In this document: piece by piece, positions 544 to 10,894 of the stretch
Position numbering within the stretch: the stretch's first letter is position 1
Layout of the letters: the number at the start of each line of letters is the position of its first letter
Notes under the pieces: model-generated
What the model saw: only the letters and a program-made list of their open reading frames with translations
Database searches by the model: none
Told to the model about the DNA's origin: nothing
Made by a program: the position numbers and the translations under genes
DNA from: Gordonia hankookensis
Lineage (GTDB): Bacteria; Actinomycetota; Actinomycetes; Mycobacteriales; Mycobacteriaceae
Direction of reading: 5' to 3'
Assembly (NCBI RefSeq): GCF_014673215.1
Contig: NZ_JACWMS010000001.1
Coordinates: 496,001-560,000, forward strand
Length of the DNA stretch: 64,000 nucleotides

Positions 544-1131
544 ATGACCACGACGTTACGCCGCCCCGATCCCCGCTTCGAACCCGCGCATGCGCGCTCA
601 GCCAACCTGCCGACGCGACTGCGCCCCGCCGATCTGCTGCGCATCACCGATCAGGGTGTCGCCGACGTCCTCGACGGCGTCTACGATCACCTCCTCCCCG
701 ACCGCTGGGATCCGGTGGAACGGTGGGCCGCCCGCCTGGAGACGACCGACGACCTCGACCTCTGGCTCATCAGTTGGACGCCGGACCGCTCGACCGAACT
801 CCATGATCACGCCGGTTCACTCGGAGCGCTGACGGTGCTCTCGGGCTCATTGCGCGAATACCGCTGGATCGGGAACGAATTGGCCCTGCGCATCCTCGAT
901 TCGGGCGACCAGGCCGCGTTCCCGCTGGGGTGGGTCCACGACGTGCAGCGGCACGACGCACTGGCGATCCGCTCCGACGACGCCGTCGACAACATTCCTC
1001 TCGACGCGGTGACGCCCACACTGAGCGTGCACGCCTATTCGCCGCCCCTGACCGCGATGTCGTTCTACGCTGTGACCGATCACGCCACCTTGCGGAGGAC
1101 GCGAACCGAACTCACCGACCAACCGGAGTGA
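544..1131 (+). CDS. Cysteine dioxygenase family protein
   Basis: This 195-residue cupin protein probably oxidises cysteine, or a related small thiol, to the sulfinate with non-haem iron in the cytoplasm. The iron-binding cupin motif is visible as ELHDHAGS (His87 and His89), with a third candidate ligand His132 in GWVHDV. The length matches bacterial type I cysteine dioxygenases. The ATG at 544 has GGAG about 7 bases upstream. A rhodanese-domain gene follows after 5 bases. That pairing is common in actinobacteria and fits handling of sulfur from thiol oxidation. The exact thiol cannot be read from the sequence; 3-mercaptopropionate dioxygenases share this fold. Confidence 0.85.
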   Translation: MTTTLRRPDPRFEPAHARSANLPTRLRPADLLRITDQGVADVLDGVYDHLLPDRWDPVERWAARLETTDDLDLWLISWTPDRSTELHDHAGSLGALTVLSGSLREYRWIGNELALRILDSGDQAAFPLGWVHDVQRHDALAIRSDDAVDNIPLDAVTPTLSVHAYSPPLTAMSFYAVTDHATLRRTRTELTDQPE

Positions 1132-1136
1132 CCGAT

Positions 1137-1514
1137 ATGCCGACGATCGACGATCTGCTGCTCGATGCACGTGACCGGCTCGAACGGCTCGCTCCGACCG
1201 AGGTGGCCGAGGAGATCGAGCACGGTGGCGTACTCGTCGACATCCGCCCCGCGGCCCAGCGCGCCGTCGAGGGTGAGGCGCCCGGCGCACTCGTCATCGA
1301 ACGCAACGTGCTCGAATGGCGATGTGATCCGGCCAGCGACGCCAGGGTGGCCGAAGCAGTCGATCACGATGTGCGATGGATCGTGTTGTGCTCGCAGGGA
1401 TTCACCTCCAGCCTCGCCGCGGCCGCCCTGCAACAACTCGGCCTGCACCGCGCCACCGACGTCGTCGGCGGGTGGGAGGCACTGCGGGCCGTCGACGCAC
1501 ACCCAAGCGCCTGA
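1137..1514 (+). CDS. Rhodanese-like domain protein
   Basis: This is a single-domain rhodanese of 125 residues that probably carries or transfers sulfane sulfur on a cysteine. The active-site loop is WIVLCSQGFTSS with catalytic Cys85, preceded by the LVDIRP motif near residue 33 that is typical of the fold. It starts 5 bases after the cysteine dioxygenase stop, and the Shine-Dalgarno GGAG lies inside the end of that gene, so the two are almost certainly one transcript. The likely role is dealing with sulfur released by, or entering, cysteine catabolism. The substrate is not shown by the sequence. Confidence 0.85.
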   Translation: MPTIDDLLLDARDRLERLAPTEVAEEIEHGGVLVDIRPAAQRAVEGEAPGALVIERNVLEWRCDPASDARVAEAVDHDVRWIVLCSQGFTSSLAAAALQQLGLHRATDVVGGWEALRAVDAHPSA

Positions 1515-1581: not shown

Positions 1582-2826
1582 TCAGGCGACGGCCGGCCAA
1601 GGACGACCGCGGGGGGTCACCTCGGCGGCGAGGCCCGTGGCGGGGTCGGCGACGGCGGCGACGTGCCCGGCGAGTGACGGGTCGATCCAGCCGTCGCCGA
1701 GGACATACGGCGGCTGAGCGGTGATGCGTTCGGTGAGGGTGTGACCCGCCGCGGCGGTGATCTCCGCGAGCACGTCGAGATTCGGCCACGGACGCTCGGG
1801 ATTCACGTGATCGGGGGTCAGCGGCGACACCCCACCCCAGTCGTCGATGCCCGAGGCGATCAGGGCAGCGCACTCCTGCGATGACACCAGATTCGGCGGC
1901 GCCTGGACGCGCATCGCCGGCCCGAGCACGATCCGGGCCACCGCGACAGCCGCGAGGAACTCGGTCATCGCCGCGTCGGGAGTACCCCGCATCGCGGTAT
2001 CGGGCTTGGCCCGGAAGTTCTGGACGATCACTTCCTGGATGTGACCGTGGGCCCGATGGATGTCGGCCATCGCGAGGATCGATTCGGCACGTTCGGTGAG
2101 AGTCTCGCCGATACCGACCAGGATGCCGGTGGTGAACGGGACGCGGACGGCACCGGCGTCGCGCAGCACCTGCAGGCGCACGAGCGGGTCCTTGTCCGGA
2201 CTCCCGTAGTGCGGCTGGCCCTTCTCGGTGAACAAGCGGCGGGACGTGGTCTCGAGCATCATCCCCATCGACGGCGCGACCGGCCGCAGCAGGCGCATCT
2301 CCTCGACGCTCATGACACCGGGATTGAGGTGCGGCAACAGCCCGGTATCCTCGAGGACCGCCACCGCTGCGGTACGCACATAATCCAGTGTCGAGCTGTA
2401 CCCGCGTGCCGCGAGCCATTCGCCCGCCTGCGTCCATCGCTCCTCGGGACGATCCCCGAGGGTGAACAACGCCTCTTTGCAACCGAGTTCGGCGCCCTTG
2501 CGGGCGATGTCGACGACCTCGTCGAGGTCGAGGTACATCCCGTGTCCCTCGCGGGCCAGTTTTCCCGGCACCGTGACGAACGTGCAGTAATGGCAGCGAT
2601 CACGACACAGTCGGGTGAGCGGGATGAACACCTTGCGCGAGTATGTGATCTGACGTTCGCGGCCGATCGCCGCGAGGCCGGTGTCGCGGATCCGGCCCGC
2701 GATCTCCTGCAACGCGAGCAGGTCGTCACCGGCGCACGCCAGCAACGTGGTCGCCTGTTCGAGGTCGATCGGTTCTCCGGATCGCGCCGCCGCCAGGGCG
2801 GTCGACGTGGTTCCCGCGTCGGTCAT
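1582..2826 (-). CDS. cofG: CofG, FO synthase subunit 1 (radical SAM)
   Basis: CofG makes 7,8-didemethyl-8-hydroxy-5-deazariboflavin (FO), the chromophore of coenzyme F420, from the adduct made by CofH. The 414-residue protein keeps the radical-SAM cluster motif CX3CX2C at Cys74, Cys78 and Cys81 ([12 protein letters not shown]). It also keeps long FbiC/CofG signatures such as [40 protein letters not shown] and [20 protein letters not shown]. The ATG at 2826 overlaps the upstream monooxygenase stop by ATGA, with a GGAGGTCC Shine-Dalgarno. In mycobacteria this half is fused to CofH as FbiC. Here it stands alone and is the last gene of a three-gene operon. All expected active-site cysteines are present, so I infer it is functional. 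Confidence 0.93.
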
Positions 2827-4328
2827 CGTGACGGACCTCCTCTGTCCTGGGGTCGGGTTTCGGTCAGATACGGTTGCGGGTCGAAGGTGCCGTTGCGTTC
2901 TCGGAACGACACCGCGGTACCCGGCCACAGCAGTGTGAGCCGCCCGCTTCTCGGGTCGACGTACCAGCTCTCGCAGCCGGTCAACCACACCGTGGCCGCG
3001 CTGCGCTCGTCGATCTCCCGGGTGTAGTCCTCCTCGGCCTGTGCAGTGACCTCCAGTGAACGACTTCCGTTGTGCGCCAAGAAGTCCAGAGCGCCCACCA
3101 CGTAGTCGAGCTGGGTCTCGATCATGTAGATCGCGGAGTTGTGCCCGAGTGCCGCGTTGGGGCCGTCGAGGACGAACATGTTCGGGAACCCACTGACCGT
3201 GGTGGAGGCGTAGGAGACCATGCCGTCGGACCAGTGGTCGGCGAGCACCCGCCCGCCGCGTCCGCGGATACGCGTCGCGGCAGGGGGTCTGGTCGCCTCG
3301 AACCCGGTGGCCATCACGAGAATGTCCAGATCGTAGGTGTTGCCGCTGACGGCGCGCGCCTTGCACTCGACCACCGAATCCAGCGCACTCGACTCGAACA
3401 CCACGTTCGGACGCTCCAACGCCGGGTAGAAGTCGTCGCTCAGCAGTATTCGCTTACAACCGATCTCGTACTCGGGCGTGAGCTCGGCGCGCAACGTCGG
3501 GCTGGCGACCTGGCGGTTCAGATGCCCGAGCGCGCGGTCGCGGATGTCATCGATATCAGGATGGAGGCCGAGGCGCTGCCGGAAACCCTTGTCGGCGTCG
3601 TGGAGCAGTCGTTCACGAAGCGCCTGAGCGTTCTCCGGCACCTGCAGCTCGGCTCGTTCGGAGTCCGAGAGTCGACGATCCTCCCGCGGGACCACGTAGG
3701 GAGGAGTCCGTGAGAAGACCACCAGCTCTTCGGCGTTCTCGGCAAGGTGCGGGATCACCTGGACGGCTGATGCACCCGTGCCGACCACTCCGATCCGCTC
3801 TCCTCCGGAGAGCAGGCCCTCTCGCCATGAAGCCGTGTGGACGACTGTGCCGGTGAATGATTCGAGGCCTTCGACATCGGGCAGGTGCGGCTCGGACAGG
3901 CGACCGACGGCCATCACCAGGACCCGGGCACGGATCGGTCCCGACCCGGTGACGAGTGACCAGTATGCGCCGTCGTCGTCCCACCGGGCTTGCCGCAGTT
4001 CACAACCCAGACGTATGTGCGGCGCGAGGCCCTCGTCGTCGACGGTGCGCTGGAGATACCGCTGGATGTCGGCCCCCCGCGGATACAGGGTCGCCCAGTC
4101 GGTCGGCGGGCGGAACGAGAACGAGTACAGATGTGCCGGGATGTCGCAGGCGATCCCGGGATAGGTGTTGTCGCGCCAGGTGCCACCGACCGCGTCGGCG
4201 CGCTCGAGAACCACGAAGGATTCCGTTGCGCGTCTTGCCAACTGCGTGGCCATCCCGATCCCGGCAAATCCGGCGCCGACGATCGCGACGTCCACCGAGG
4301 TGGGCGTGACGGGACCGGGGGTGGTCAT
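2823..4328 (-). CDS. Baeyer-Villiger-type flavin monooxygenase
   Basis: This 501-residue FAD- and NADPH-dependent monooxygenase belongs to the family that oxidises ketones to esters or lactones. An N-terminal FAD Rossmann motif GAGFAG lies at residues 18-23. The Baeyer-Villiger fingerprint FXGXXXHXXXW lies at 158-168 (F158, G160, H164, W168). A second nucleotide motif GTGASA lies at 183-188, and an ATG motif (VMATGFE) sits near the C terminus. It overlaps the upstream CofH-like gene and the downstream cofG by four bases each (ATGA), so all three are translationally coupled. No flavin monooxygenase belongs to the known F420 pathway. Either it acts in a side branch or the operon was assembled by insertion. 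The substrate is unknown. Confidence 0.88.
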
Positions 4329-5449
4329 CGACGCACCTGCGGGATCGACACGAGACGGTCGGCAGGCGGATCGGTATGGGCGGTGGTGCGTTGGCGCGGT
4401 GTGCGGCCGACTCGTGCCGCGATGTCGACGAGGTCATCGACATCGAGGACCCGACCGGCCTCCTGACCTGCCGCCGGCATCAGCTCGCCGTCGAGCAGGA
4501 GGCCACCGATGTCGTCGACGCCGCCGCGCAACACCTGCTCCACCACCTCGCGGTCGAGTTTCGTCCACGCCACCTGCAGATGGTCGAACCGGCCGAGGGT
4601 GAGCAACCGGGCGACGGCGTGGACGGCGCGGGTCTCACGTTCGGAGACGGTCGTGGTCGCGATCCCGGACAGGTGCGGTCCGGCATTCGCCGGCAGCATG
4701 GGCATGACGATCAACTCGCTGAAACCGGCAGTACGGCTCTGGATCTCGGTGAGCAGGCGCAGGTGCGCGACCTGGTGGCGCGGCGTCTCGACATGGCCGT
4801 AGAGCATGGTGGCCGTGGAGAACAGACCGACCCCGTGCGCGGCCTCGATGACCTCGATCCAGTCCTCCACCGCCGGTGCGCGACCACCCCCGAGACGGGA
4901 CCGTACCTCGTCGTCGAGGATCTGCGCGGCGGTGCCGGGCACCGATCCGAGCCCTGCATCGCGGGCGGTCCGCAGGAAGTCGGCGATCGGCACGTCCATC
5001 CGCCTCGCCGCATCGCGTACCTCGGGCGGGCGGAAGGCATGCAGGTGCAGATCCGGCGCCGCACGATGGATTCGCTCGATGAGACGCAGATACCCGTCGG
5101 GCGGGGCATCGGCGGGCACCGGCCCCTGCAGACAGATCTCCGTGGCACCGAGCCGCCACGCCTCGTCGACCAACGCCTCCACCGCCGGTACGTCCGCACG
5201 TCCTGCGGCGACCACCGCGGTGTCGAGATTGCGATTGACCACGAAGGTCACCGTGTCGGGATCGGTCACCTCACGGCGCGCGGCGTCGGCGAGCGCACAC
5301 AGTGCCTCGAGTTCGGGTCCCGACGCGCCGAGCAGGGCGACCCACTCGTCGTCGGTCAGCGACGCCGGATCGTCGGCGACGTGACGCAATGCTTCCCGGG
5401 CTTCGTCCACCGCGGCGTGCGCGTCCCGAGCCCACTCCCGCAGGACCAT
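4325..5449 (-). CDS. CofH-like protein lacking the radical-SAM cysteine loop
   Basis: This protein aligns along nearly its whole length with CofH, the C-terminal half of FbiC. Recognisable stretches are TFVVNRN (residues 68-74), GATEICLQGP, HLHAFRPPEV, GSVPGTAAQILDDEVR, TMLYGHVETPRH, GGVDDIGGLL and RTPRQRTT. In CofH the VNRN motif is followed by a loop with CX3CX2C that holds the catalytic 4Fe-4S cluster. Here that loop of about 20 residues is missing, and VNRNLDTAVVAAGRADVP leads directly into the next helix, with no cysteine. The frame is otherwise intact and coupled by ATGA to the next gene. ATG 5449 is preferred; the frame stays open to 5536. It cannot do CofH chemistry as known. It may be a structural or binding pseudoenzyme, or a decaying copy. 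Confidence 0.82.
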   Translation of the reverse strand: MVLREWARDAHAAVDEAREALRHVADDPASLTDDEWVALLGASGPELEALCALADAARREVTDPDTVTFVVNRNLDTAVVAAGRADVPAVEALVDEAWRLGATEICLQGPVPADAPPDGYLRLIERIHRAAPDLHLHAFRPPEVRDAARRMDVPIADFLRTARDAGLGSVPGTAAQILDDEVRSRLGGGRAPAVEDWIEVIEAAHGVGLFSTATMLYGHVETPRHQVAHLRLLTEIQSRTAGFSELIVMPMLPANAGPHLSGIATTTVSERETRAVHAVARLLTLGRFDHLQVAWTKLDREVVEQVLRGGVDDIGGLLLDGELMPAAGQEAGRVLDVDDLVDIAARVGRTPRQRTTAHTDPPADRLVSIPQVRR

Positions 5450-5525: not shown

Positions 5526-5900
5526 TCAGACGTCATCGGGTGTGGGCAGCCGCCCCGACCACGCGACGACTGCAGGCAGGCCCGCCCCGATGGCGAGCAG
5601 CGCCAGGGTGGGCAGCATCAGCACGCCGTCCGGGAGCAGCTCGACGTCGCCGCCCGGACCGGGCAGCGCACCGATCACCAGGGCGAGGAGCCACGCCAGC
5701 AACGGAAAGTAGCGCACCGGACCGTCGGTGTAGGTCGAGGCGAGCCAGAGCAGCACGGAGTTCACGATCCCGGCGAGTACCGCGGCCACCGGGATGGCGA
5801 CGCCACCGAATCGCAGATATGCGAACGCCACGGACATCACGCCGACCACGAACCCGTCGACGACGAGGAAGGCCAGCAGGATTCGGTCGGACCAGCGCAT
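5526..5900 (-). CDS. Small membrane protein, position of Rv1171
   Basis: This is a 124-residue protein with four predicted hydrophobic segments: ILLAFLVVDGFVVGVMSVAF, the VAAVLAGIVNSVLLWLA region, YFPLLAWLLALVIGALPG, and LPTLALLAIGAGLPAVVAW. I know no function for the family. The start ATG overlaps the mshB stop by one base (TGATG), so it is probably translated from the mshB transcript. A small membrane protein holds the same place next to mshB in mycobacteria (Rv1171), which supports the call. It ends 76 bases upstream of the chosen start of the CofH-like gene. Confidence 0.75.
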   Translation of the reverse strand: MRWSDRILLAFLVVDGFVVGVMSVAFAYLRFGGVAIPVAAVLAGIVNSVLLWLASTYTDGPVRYFPLLAWLLALVIGALPGPGGDVELLPDGVLMLPTLALLAIGAGLPAVVAWSGRLPTPDDV

Positions 5901-6787
5901 CAGACGACCCCGGCGAACAGATCGATCTCACGGCCCGGCCCGACACCGTCACCGGGGTGGCCTGCCGTCCGGACGAAGTGCTCACGGTCGAGGATGGGCT
6001 GCACGATGTTGTTGGACAGGGCGTACTCGGTGCCGGAGGCGGCGACGGTCACCTGCGTGGCATGTGCAGCCAGTGCTGCCGCCTTCAGGTGCAACTGGGG
6101 ACGGACGTCGATCTCGGTGGTGATCGTCTCGTCCGGATAGCTCGGCAGCTCATCGGTTCCGGGCATGCGCCAGCCCTGCGGGACGCGGCCGGATGCCGCG
6201 GTGAGACCGACCGCGAGCGCCGACTGCTCGGTCACCGACTCGTACACCTTGAGGTGCGCGCCGCCGAGACGTTCGGCGGCCTCCGGCACAGCCGCGACCG
6301 TCGTCGCATGGACCAGTTTGTGGTCGGGGTGACCGTAGGTACCGGCGTCGTCGTAGGTCACGATCACCTGCGGCGCGAAATCCACGATCTCGGCGACGAG
6401 TGCGGCCACCAGGTCGTCGAACGGCGCTCCGACGAGGGCGCGCGGGTGGTCGGCCGACGGGGCACCGGCCATCCCCGAATCGCGCCAGCGTCCCGCGCCG
6501 CCGAGGAACCGCGGACGCACCGGTGCGCTACCCGCAGGGGTGAGCGCGGCGAGGGCGCGGGTGAGTTCGAGGATGCGGTAACCGCCCAGTTGGTCGGCGC
6601 CGCCGTCGGCGGCCAGCTGCGACCACTCCTCACCGATCACCTCGCCCTCCTCACCGAGGGTGAAGGTCAGGACGCGTACGTCGACGCCCTCGGCGAGATA
6701 GCGGGCGATGGTGCCGCCGGTCATGATCGATTCGTCGTCGGGATGCGCGTGCAACAGCAGCAGCCGCCGACCCTCAGGTGCCGTCAC
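5900..6787 (-). CDS. mshB: MshB, GlcNAc-Ins deacetylase
   Basis: MshB removes the acetyl group from GlcNAc-inositol, the second committed step of mycothiol biosynthesis in the cytoplasm. The 295-residue protein has the zinc-binding LmbE-type motif AHPDDE at residues 14-19. Another metal/catalytic motif, YGHPDHK, follows VIVTYDDAGT in the middle of the protein. Its length is close to the 303 residues of the M. tuberculosis enzyme. The GTG start overlaps the lpqW stop as GTGA, while the stop overlaps the next gene by one base. Mycothiol is the main actinobacterial low-molecular-weight thiol, so this gene also supports the taxonomic reading. Confidence 0.93.
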   Translation of the reverse strand: MTAPEGRRLLLLHAHPDDESIMTGGTIARYLAEGVDVRVLTFTLGEEGEVIGEEWSQLAADGGADQLGGYRILELTRALAALTPAGSAPVRPRFLGGAGRWRDSGMAGAPSADHPRALVGAPFDDLVAALVAEIVDFAPQVIVTYDDAGTYGHPDHKLVHATTVAAVPEAAERLGGAHLKVYESVTEQSALAVGLTAASGRVPQGWRMPGTDELPSYPDETITTEIDVRPQLHLKAAALAAHATQVTVAASGTEYALSNNIVQPILDREHFVRTAGHPGDGVGPGREIDLFAGVV

Positions 6788-8724
6788 GACAGCTCCCACG
6801 AGACAGCGTCGCCGTAGATCCCCACCTGGATCGGCCCCGACAGCGGCACGTTCTTGACCTGACCGGTCCGGCCGACGAGCGTGCTGTCCTGGTAGAGCGG
6901 CAGGTAGACCGCTTGTGCGGCCAGGAGCGGCTCGGCCTGGGTCAGTTGCGGGATGGGGTCGGCCGCCGACAACGCGCCGCGCGCGAGCGCTATCAGCGCC
7001 GGGTCGCACACGCCCGAGATGTTGCTGGCGTAGCTGTCGCCCGGACCGGCGCTGGTCTCTCCGGGTGCCACACTGGTCGGCGTCGGCGGCGTCGAGAGCG
7101 ACGGCGCGGTGCCCGGCTTCGGCTGATCGCAATCGACCTGCGACGCCAGGGATGCCGCGGGCGGCACCCCGAGTCCGGTCCAGCCGACGACGAGATCGAC
7201 CCGGGCGTTGGTCAATGCGACGCCGTACAGCTCGTTGTTGGGCAGGGCCACGACGGATGCGCGCACACCCTGGCCGCGCAACTGATCGACGATGTTGGCC
7301 GCCGCGGATGTGGATCGCGGGTCACCGCTGATCGCGCCGACCCGCACGACGAGATCCTGGCCGTCCTTGCGGTAGGGCGCGACACCCTCCGGCAACGGTT
7401 GGGTGTCGGGACTCGCGCCGGGTGCCTGGGACGGACTCGTCGCAGCACCCGGTGGGGATGAACTCGGCGAGGACGAGTTCTGCGACGACGAGCCCTGCGT
7501 CGGGCTCGTCCCCGTGGTGCTCGGGGTGCCTGCGGCCGGCGTGGCGCTGTCGCCCTCGGCGCGTCGGTAGCCTGCGTCGGCCAGCAGACCGGTGATCGCA
7601 CCGGCCGACGGTCTCGCCCGGTCGACCGGGAAGTAGCCGCGGTCCGTCGGGGCGAAAACGGTGTTGGCGTATGGCGTCACGATGTCGTCGCCCGCGCCGG
7701 CGAGAGAGACCAGACCCGGATCGACCATGCCGAGGACCGCCTGGCGCACCTGCAACGAACGCATCGTCGACGTCCGGGCATTGACGCCGATCGACAGGGC
7801 GCGCGACGTCGGGTTGCGCTGCGTCTGCACTCCCGGCACCGCGGCGAGTTCTGCGGTGGTCGCCGGCCCGGTGCTGAGGTTGACGATCGACGAATCTCCC
7901 GATCGCACGGTCTCGACCATCTGCGACGCCGTGCCAGCCCGACGCAGGACCACCTGGTCCAACGACGGCGGCTTCATCCAGTACCGGTCGTTGCGTACCA
8001 GACGCACCTCGTCGCGGGTCTGGTCGATGGACACAACCGAATACGGACCGGCCGAGACGGGCTTCCCGCTGTCCATGCCGGTCTGGAACCCCGCGGGCGC
8101 GCCCCGCAGGACGTGGCTCGGCAGCAGGTCCGTGAAGAGTTCACGCCAGGCCGGATACGGCCGCGCGAACGTCACCGCCACCTCCTTGCCGCCTGCCCGC
8201 GACTGCACCGAGTCGATCAGGCGATAGCCTGCGGGCGCGACGACGTTGGGTTGCCGCGACATCTGCTGCCAGAGGTACGAGAAATCGTCGCCGGTCACCG
8301 GGAGGCCGTCGGACCACTGCGCGTCGGTCTGGATGTGATAGGTGACGGTGAACGGCTCGGTCGAGGTGACCGCAGCCGAGGTGATCAGCGCGTTCTGGCG
8401 CTCCCACACGACCCCTGCCGGGGTGCTGACCGGCTGGAACGCACTCGGAAGGGTCATCGCGGCGATCGCCGTGGTGACCGAACCCTGATCGGCACCGAGG
8501 TGCGGGTTGAACCCGCCGCCCACGGAGTCGGTCGCGATGTAGACCGTCTTCTCGGTCGGATACTCGGTCGGGGTGGCCGGCGGCGCCGTCTCGCGTACCG
8601 GTGGCGGCGGATTGGCCGAGCACGCGGCACCCACCACCACGATCGCCGCGAGCAGGGCAGGCAATCGGCCGCGACGGCGGGCGGCGCGCACCGACGATCT
8701 CAGCTGCCAACGACTCACCAGCAC
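6784..8724 (-). CDS. lpqW: LpqW-type lipoprotein, peptide-binding-protein fold
   Basis: This is a secreted lipoprotein with the fold of family 5 extracellular solute-binding proteins. In mycobacteria LpqW acts at the membrane and influences lipoarabinomannan and phosphatidylinositol mannoside synthesis. A basic N terminus, a hydrophobic segment (LLAAIVVVGAAC) and a lipobox with cysteine are clear. The start is ambiguous. I chose GTG 8724 because GAGGTGG lies about 5 bases upstream; GTG 8718 and GTG 8766 are alternatives. A long low-complexity linker rich in Ser, Thr, Pro, Gln and Gly (roughly encoded by 7400-7560) interrupts the solute-binding fold. The gene is followed directly by mshB with a GTGA overlap, as part of the Rv1165-1177-like order. 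Confidence 0.87.
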   Translation of the reverse strand: MLVSRWQLRSSVRAARRRGRLPALLAAIVVVGAACSANPPPPVRETAPPATPTEYPTEKTVYIATDSVGGGFNPHLGADQGSVTTAIAAMTLPSAFQPVSTPAGVVWERQNALITSAAVTSTEPFTVTYHIQTDAQWSDGLPVTGDDFSYLWQQMSRQPNVVAPAGYRLIDSVQSRAGGKEVAVTFARPYPAWRELFTDLLPSHVLRGAPAGFQTGMDSGKPVSAGPYSVVSIDQTRDEVRLVRNDRYWMKPPSLDQVVLRRAGTASQMVETVRSGDSSIVNLSTGPATTAELAAVPGVQTQRNPTSRALSIGVNARTSTMRSLQVRQAVLGMVDPGLVSLAGAGDDIVTPYANTVFAPTDRGYFPVDRARPSAGAITGLLADAGYRRAEGDSATPAAGTPSTTGTSPTQGSSSQNSSSPSSSPPGAATSPSQAPGASPDTQPLPEGVAPYRKDGQDLVVRVGAISGDPRSTSAAANIVDQLRGQGVRASVVALPNNELYGVALTNARVDLVVGWTGLGVPPAASLASQVDCDQPKPGTAPSLSTPPTPTSVAPGETSAGPGDSYASNISGVCDPALIALARGALSAADPIPQLTQAEPLLAAQAVYLPLYQDSTLVGRTGQVKNVPLSGPIQVGIYGDAVSWELS

Positions 8725-8777
8725 TACCCCCACCTCATGGGTGCCCGGCGCATATCGTCCGGGCACTCGGCCTTGCC

Positions 8778-10688
<1,911 letters not shown>

Positions 10689-10894
10689 TGAGCTCTCTTT
10701 CACTGCGGTTCGTACTCGAGGTCTGGGCTTGTGGGGTCGATATGTCCCGCTCGCTCACTCCCGGCGCGGCGGGCGGCGGGGAAGCGTGGCGGCATGGCCG
10801 GCCGGTACCCGGCGATCGCCAGCGGACAGGTCAACCTGTACAGGGTATCGGTCGACCGCCTGAGACGGTGATCACATCACGCGGACAGCCCGAA

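Follow-up and report, generated by a model that had tools for sequence, protein, structure and literature searches.

A 64,000-bp window of the Gordonia hankookensis genome (assembly GCF_014673215.1, contig NZ_JACWMS010000001.1, positions 496,001 to 560,000) carries a gene for a CofH-like protein that lacks the cysteine motif of radical S-adenosylmethionine (SAM) enzymes, hereafter named cofH* (protein, CofH*). In the synthesis of the deazaflavin FO, a step in making cofactor F420, canonical CofH generates a p-hydroxybenzyl radical from tyrosine that adds to ribitylaminouracil; the adduct is oxidized and CofG closes the ring (PMC8498797). On the minus strand of the window, typA, lpqW, mshB, and an Rv1171-like gene are followed by cofH*, a gene for a Baeyer-Villiger monooxygenase (BVMO), and cofG, with the BVMO gene overlapping each of its two neighbors by 4 bp (Table 1). 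An initial annotation of this DNA had described an intact cofH* coupled to an intact cofG. Both genes are indeed intact, but their coupling is not direct, as the BVMO gene, which had been missed, lies between them. In the window, CofG and CofH* are encoded by separate genes and not fused as in FbiC. The names of the four upstream genes are presumed from their resemblance to Mycobacterium tuberculosis genes. Their order is the same in all 15 Gordonia cofH* loci compared, and mshB-lpqW-typA stand at the same place in all five Gordonia loci with a fused fbiC that were compared, an Rv1171-like gene being recognizable in four of these. In Gordonia, cofH*-BVMO-cofG occupies the place of fbiC.

Table 1. 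Features of the cofH* locus, in coordinates of the analyzed window.
Feature	Position	Strand	Description or basis
cofH*, CofH-like TIM-barrel protein without radical-SAM cysteine motif	4325..5449	-	374 aa, ATG start, no internal stop
CofH* residues 75-90, short Cys-free stretch after VVNRN at the CX3CX2C loop position of canonical CofH	5180..5227	-	Alignments
BVMO, predicted type I Baeyer-Villiger monooxygenase, 501 aa	2823..4328	-	Pfam/NCBIfam, PDB relatives, fold
BVMO fingerprint, residues 48-62	4143..4187	-	Alignment of 38 BVMOs
BVMO fingerprint FxGxxxHxxxW, residues 158-168	3825..3857	-	Alignment of 38 BVMOs
cofG, intact stand-alone radical-SAM CofG, 414 aa	1582..2826	-	TIGR03550 match and CX3CX2C
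CofG radical-SAM motif CRDRCHYC, residues 74-81	2584..2607	-	Translation
Rv1171-like, mshB, lpqW, typA, conserved neighbors marking the ancestral fbiC place	5526..10703	-	Gene-order comparison

Judged by its sequence, CofH* is a CofH homologue that falls outside the CofH family on both the cluster motif and the family cut-off. Against TIGR03551, the model for CofH and the C-terminal domain of FbiC (5-amino-6-(D-ribitylamino)uracil--L-tyrosine 4-hydroxyphenyl transferase), it scores 293.7 bits (E = 1.5e-87), below the cut-off of 374.1 bits. CofH* proteins of two genomes from a second family, introduced below, score 284 and 291 bits, and two fused Gordonia FbiC proteins included as a control reach 577 and 578 bits. 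Following VVNRN, the segment of about 20 residues that holds CX3CX2C in normal CofH is reduced to a short stretch without cysteine. CX3CX2C occurs in 0/54 aligned CofH* sequences (the remaining one of 55 is cut off at a contig end) versus 55/55 canonical CofH domains, confirming the earlier description of a CofH-like frame without the radical-SAM cysteine loop at the fbiC position. In the CofH family, QGG stands in for the SAM-binding motif; it reads QGP in 93% of the CofH* proteins, whose C-terminal MEETISR stretch has also become LDGxLxP. CofH* and CofH remain homologous over most of their length and share an MqnE-like barrel and, in Gordonia, the genomic place and a CofG partner. Residues invariant (at least 95%) in both groups include R73, N74, G101-A102-T103-E104 (the GATE motif), C106, Q108, G109 (QG), H135, H137, E143, G172-T173-A174-A175 (GTAA), L178, D179, D180 (LDD), Y217-G218-H219 (YGH), and W295, and a GG is shared as well. 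R140, E221, D320, G321, and P325 are invariant specifically in CofH*. Among second-family sequences, those of loci L172, L175, L181, and L183 have VANRN in place of VVNRN, and those of L181 and L183 a longer stretch before RETRA. In one genome (G599, C71:323-2541), the CofG and CofH* matches each fall into two pieces within one open frame, suggesting insertions; the CofG of genome G534 is similar.

The AlphaFold model of CofH* (mean predicted local distance difference test [pLDDT] score, 89.2; predicted template modeling score [pTM], 0.90) shows a CofH/MqnE-type barrel. The closest solved fold is that of the aminofutalosine synthase MqnE (PDB 6xi9 and 6xig; TM-score, 0.77; 26% identity), itself a radical-SAM enzyme, which the CofH* profile matches only downstream of the cluster loop. 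A sequence search found no solved CofH structure from which active-site contacts could be assigned. The gene is full length (372 to 394 aa) in all 36 Gordonia cofH* loci, and the ratio of nonsynonymous to synonymous substitution rates (dN/dS) across ten close pairs is 0.10 to 0.24 for cofH*, 0.09 to 0.20 for the BVMO gene, and 0.07 to 0.14 for cofG. CofH* is a maintained protein under purifying selection and not a remnant. Because the loss of the motif is consistent across 54/54 sequences and dN/dS is in this range, the loss reflects neither chance, decay, nor sequencing error. Simple decay had already been doubted for this intact frame, and the suggestion of a pseudoenzyme or a new reaction pointed in the right direction.

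The middle gene encodes, as far as sequence and predicted fold can tell, a type I BVMO. Enzymes of this type carry the fingerprints FxGxxxHxxxW and GGxWxxxxYPGxxxD. Across 38 aligned sequences, G48, G49, T50, W51, R52, D53, N54, Y56, P57, G58, C61, and D62 of the first fingerprint region and F158, G160, H164, and W168 of the second are invariant. Also invariant is the pair K292-R293, which aligns with the KR of cyclohexanone monooxygenase (CHMO) chains; we take its arginine to correspond to R329 in CHMO and R337 in phenylacetone monooxygenase (PAMO). The PDB relatives are CHMO, steroid monooxygenase (STMO), and PAMO, on which the BVMO model superposes with TM-scores of about 0.8, although confidence in this model is lower (mean pLDDT, 81, and below 50 for residues 52 to 59, within the fingerprint). 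Like these relatives, the protein has both fingerprints, both nucleotide-binding glycine motifs, the aligned Lys-Arg pair, and the fold. Unlike them, it is part of a distinct set of orthologues that goes with cofH*, its paralogues in Gordonia being about 40% identical. In all 55 cofH* loci, the BVMO gene adjoins cofH* on the same strand, with a 4-bp overlap in 33 of them (starts as placed). Genome-wide searches of 25 of the 59 Gordonia genomes recovered BVMO orthologues (69 to 100% identity) in 16/16 genomes with CofH* and 0/9 with fused FbiC, where the best matches are paralogues of 37 to 40% identity. In the fetched 6.5 to 15.1 kb around the fused fbiC of 23/23 Gordonia loci, there was no BVMO-like match at E <= 1e-20. 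At one Gordonia locus (L042, genome G022, 1277-1761 and 5582-7044), the BVMO gene and a cysteine-dioxygenase-like gene are each split over two frames, suggesting assembly frameshifts; this is the single broken BVMO frame among the 36 Gordonia loci.

Across 59 Gordonia genomes, CofH* was found in 36, fused FbiC in 23, and both in none. The order cofH*-BVMO-cofG on one strand holds for all 36 loci, that of the window included. Nine loci from named species, all Gordonia and including G. rhizosphera, G. amarae, G. desulfuricans, G. soli, G. jinhuaensis, and G. tangerina, show the same order and the same lack of the cysteine motif (9/9 each); eight of them overlap the 59-genome set and are therefore not independent of its counts. 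Restriction of CofH* to Gordonia was considered and is ruled out by the presence of the trio in a second family (f14), which we would guess to be the Pseudonocardiaceae. The best matches listed for 397 sampled genomes of the order included one non-Gordonia genome (G322), and others may have been missed; a TGA within its CofH* match, at first sight an internal stop, is the gene's own stop codon, overrun by the match. In the second family, at least 19 of 297 genomes carry CofH* at E <= 1e-90, 17 of them from a single genus and the other two from one further genus each, so that the cysteine-less form occurs in four genera. There the BVMO gene directly follows cofH* in 19/19 genomes, and cofG precedes it in 16/19 (order cofG-cofH*-BVMO). 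Two of the remaining three have a stand-alone cofG on a different contig. The G620 copy is separated from the contig ends by more than 55 kb, and cofH* and the BVMO gene are still together; in G668 both pieces are near contig ends, making a distant linkage possible. No BVMO gene or cofH* was present within the 6.0 kb (G620) and 4.4 kb (G668) fetched around these cofG genes. The third, G630, a genome only 59% complete, gave no cofG match. No wide distribution across the phylum emerged: a sample of 396 genomes gave two matches at a strict E <= 1e-85, both from Gordonia. The initial annotation understated the importance of the locus, because cofH* has a BVMO partner and turns up again in a second family.

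Several side observations concern the surroundings of these genes. Beside cofG in the window (544-1514, plus strand) lie genes that, by eye, resemble those for a cysteine dioxygenase and a rhodanese. The former occurs near 14/15 and the latter near 13/15 Gordonia cofH* loci, and neither was found in the stretches fetched for five fused-fbiC loci. Near the second-family genes, there appear, by eye, to be luciferase-like (LLM) oxidoreductases, possibly F420 dependent (L144:12794-13903, plus strand; L177:154-525, minus strand), and no tyrosine metabolism gene was recognized by eye among the proteins of four loci called by GC bias. In one Gordonia genome of the fused type (G008), the same FbiC match appears on contigs C2 and C10, perhaps a duplicated assembly piece.

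Genomes with CofH* retain other F420 genes. The initial annotation had held that a true CofH must be encoded elsewhere if the organism makes F420. This was not borne out: the G. hankookensis genome (estimated 100% complete) yields a single CofH-like match, CofH* itself, and 0/55 genomes with CofH* have a CofH above the family cut-off, the two Gordonia FbiC proteins serving as positive control. FbiA exceeds its cut-off in 55/55 of these genomes (36 Gordonia and 19 others) and CofG in 54/55, the miss being the incomplete G630. The CofG of the window scores 462 bits against TIGR03550 (cut-off, 213), and CX3CX2C is present in all 52 split CofG proteins aligned. The F420-dependent Fgd is above its cut-off in the 25 Gordonia genomes searched, 16 of which encode CofH*. 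In G. hankookensis itself, the gene after that for FbiA encodes a full FbiB, Fgd is likewise intact, and all three lie far above their family cut-offs. Retention of the next step (CofG), later steps (FbiA and FbiB), and an F420 user (Fgd) amounts to genetic evidence that these bacteria may produce F420.

In a CofH tree of 82 rows, the CofH* proteins of Gordonia and the second family form one clade (support, 100) apart from all 44 canonical domains, those of Gordonia FbiC included, and uniting Gordonia CofH* with Gordonia FbiC is rejected by the approximately unbiased (AU) test (p = 1.7e-5). Long branches might draw the CofH* proteins together, but such attraction would not account for their common loop deletion, QGP, or BVMO partner. 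In a CofG tree of 79 rows, the split CofG of Gordonia groups with the CofG half of Gordonia FbiC (support, 90). The CofG of the window is 72 to 76% identical to Gordonia FbiC (23 loci) versus 57 to 62% to linked second-family CofG (16 loci); for the two unlinked second-family CofG proteins, the values are 61 and 66%. The simplest story these sequences suggest is that cofH* and the BVMO gene were transferred between families as a two-gene unit, which took over from the CofH half of FbiC in a Gordonia ancestor and left the native CofG half in place. On this account, evolution would itself have performed a complementation test, in which the pair substitutes for CofH.

From the linkage, the loss of the cluster motif, the selection, and the co-occurrence described above, we infer that CofH* and the BVMO probably replace CofH together in FO synthesis, feeding the retained radical-SAM CofG. 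This follows because each genome has one type, the BVMO neighbor is constant, no canonical CofH is present, and the F420 genes are kept. Beyond this, it is conceivable, though we hold it with some doubt, that the first F420 step has become a radical-free reaction dependent on O2 and flavin, carried out by the BVMO with a cluster-less barrel, and that it evolved once and spread as a transferred two-gene unit.

A detailed chemistry, argued from analogy, can be offered tentatively. The BVMO, with NADPH, FAD, and O2, would act on 4-hydroxyphenylpyruvate or a similar carbonyl derived from tyrosine. Insertion of oxygen beside the benzylic carbon would yield a 4-hydroxybenzyl ester (from 4-hydroxyphenylpyruvate, 4-hydroxybenzyl oxalate). 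PAMO converts phenylacetone to benzyl acetate. A BVMO would be suited to making a quinone-methide precursor for this reason, as the corresponding 4-hydroxy ester would expel its carboxylate and leave p-quinone methide. The CofH* barrel might then hold 5-amino-6-ribitylaminouracil, exclude water, and direct C5 onto the quinone methide. The resulting adduct would be the one that CofH makes by radical chemistry, and CofG would close the ring to FO. By our own count, the sum of ribitylaminouracil and p-quinone methide would match the CofH product in formula (C16H22N4O7), and no net redox change would be involved. An older view of FO as derived from 4-hydroxyphenylpyruvate has been superseded by tyrosine for FbiC (PMC12855090); the older route might hold for CofH* and the BVMO.

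Several points weigh against replacement of CofH by this pair. Of 156 canonical invariant columns, CofH* retains no more than 68, which leaves room for a different substrate, and it is chemical reasoning that underlies both the quinone-methide step and the substrate proposed for the BVMO. The second-family CofG is placed elsewhere in the CofG tree, with weak support for its place, and a topology uniting the split CofG proteins of both families is not rejected (AU test, p = 0.325), making this tree weaker than hoped as proof of vertical descent; both trees came from quick searches and include some long branches. The gene survey covered CofH, CofG, and FbiA in all genomes with CofH*, Fgd in 25 Gordonia genomes, and FbiB in the G. 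hankookensis genome, and a search of the open-licence literature found no paper measuring F420 in Gordonia.

Among other explanations, CofH* could be a noncatalytic scaffold or carrier, with CofG performing both radical steps and the BVMO a side reaction that tailors or detoxifies a by-product. The near-universal, intact CofG, the homology of CofG and CofH (their profiles cross-match), and the barrel and 68 invariant columns retained by CofH* fit such a role. Nevertheless, it is unlikely: the split CofG has the usual length and keeps 137 of 173 canonical invariant columns, the change would be needed in two CofG lineages that stand apart in the best tree (though their grouping is not rejected), and nothing in it gives a reason for the constant BVMO neighbor. 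Uptake of FO from other bacteria, with cofH*-BVMO-cofG making another molecule from ribitylaminouracil, would also explain the kept downstream genes and accords with the strong divergence of CofH* from CofH. We regard it as quite improbable, since the Gordonia operon stands at the fbiC place, CofG is strongly conserved, and the presence of one type per genome in 59/59 points to functional substitution and not to the gain of a new pathway.

The pair might also make a modified FO, for instance with another aromatic unit instead of tyrosine, and so an F420 variant. A variant with another linker, 3PG-F420, is known (PMC8498797), the BVMO could handle a different aromatic carbonyl, and the five residues specific to CofH* suggest an altered pocket. 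The high scores of FbiA, FbiB, and Fgd in the G. hankookensis genome suggest a standard head group instead, and we give this reading little credence. Finally, a decaying gene, an assembly error, or a mis-called frame could be proposed from the deleted loop and the broken BVMO frame of L042. This can be set aside almost entirely, as it is refuted by the full-length frames, the dN/dS values, and the recurrence of the cysteine-less form in four genera.

Replacement of CofH by CofH* and the BVMO would have parallels in other pathways. HemF/HemN and AcsF/BchE are isofunctional pairs of an oxygen-dependent and a radical-SAM enzyme. The CofH*-BVMO system would resemble them in that an aerobic enzyme takes over a radical-SAM step, and would differ in that the oxygenase works with a retained relative of the radical-SAM enzyme that has no cluster. 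A 2021 review describes FO formation by two SAM-radical domains as a mechanism universal to all F420 producers studied (PMC8498797). Neither a cysteine-less CofH nor a BVMO of FO synthesis is mentioned in the excerpts of that review or of PMC6477052, PMC11917521, and PMC12855090, and neither was found in the open-licence literature, a scope that excludes bioRxiv preprints, so a prior description is possible.

If CofH* and the BVMO do replace CofH, FO synthesis with two radical-SAM domains would not be universal, and 36 of 59 Gordonia genomes, together with members of a second family, would use another first step. It would illustrate how a radical-SAM fold can lose its cluster and come to serve an oxygenase as partner. 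In production hosts, the sensitivity of FO synthase to oxygen is a suggested bottleneck (PMC11917521), and the pair could provide oxygen-tolerant FO production there. For the reading of genomes, the absence of CofH would cease to indicate that a bacterium lacks F420.

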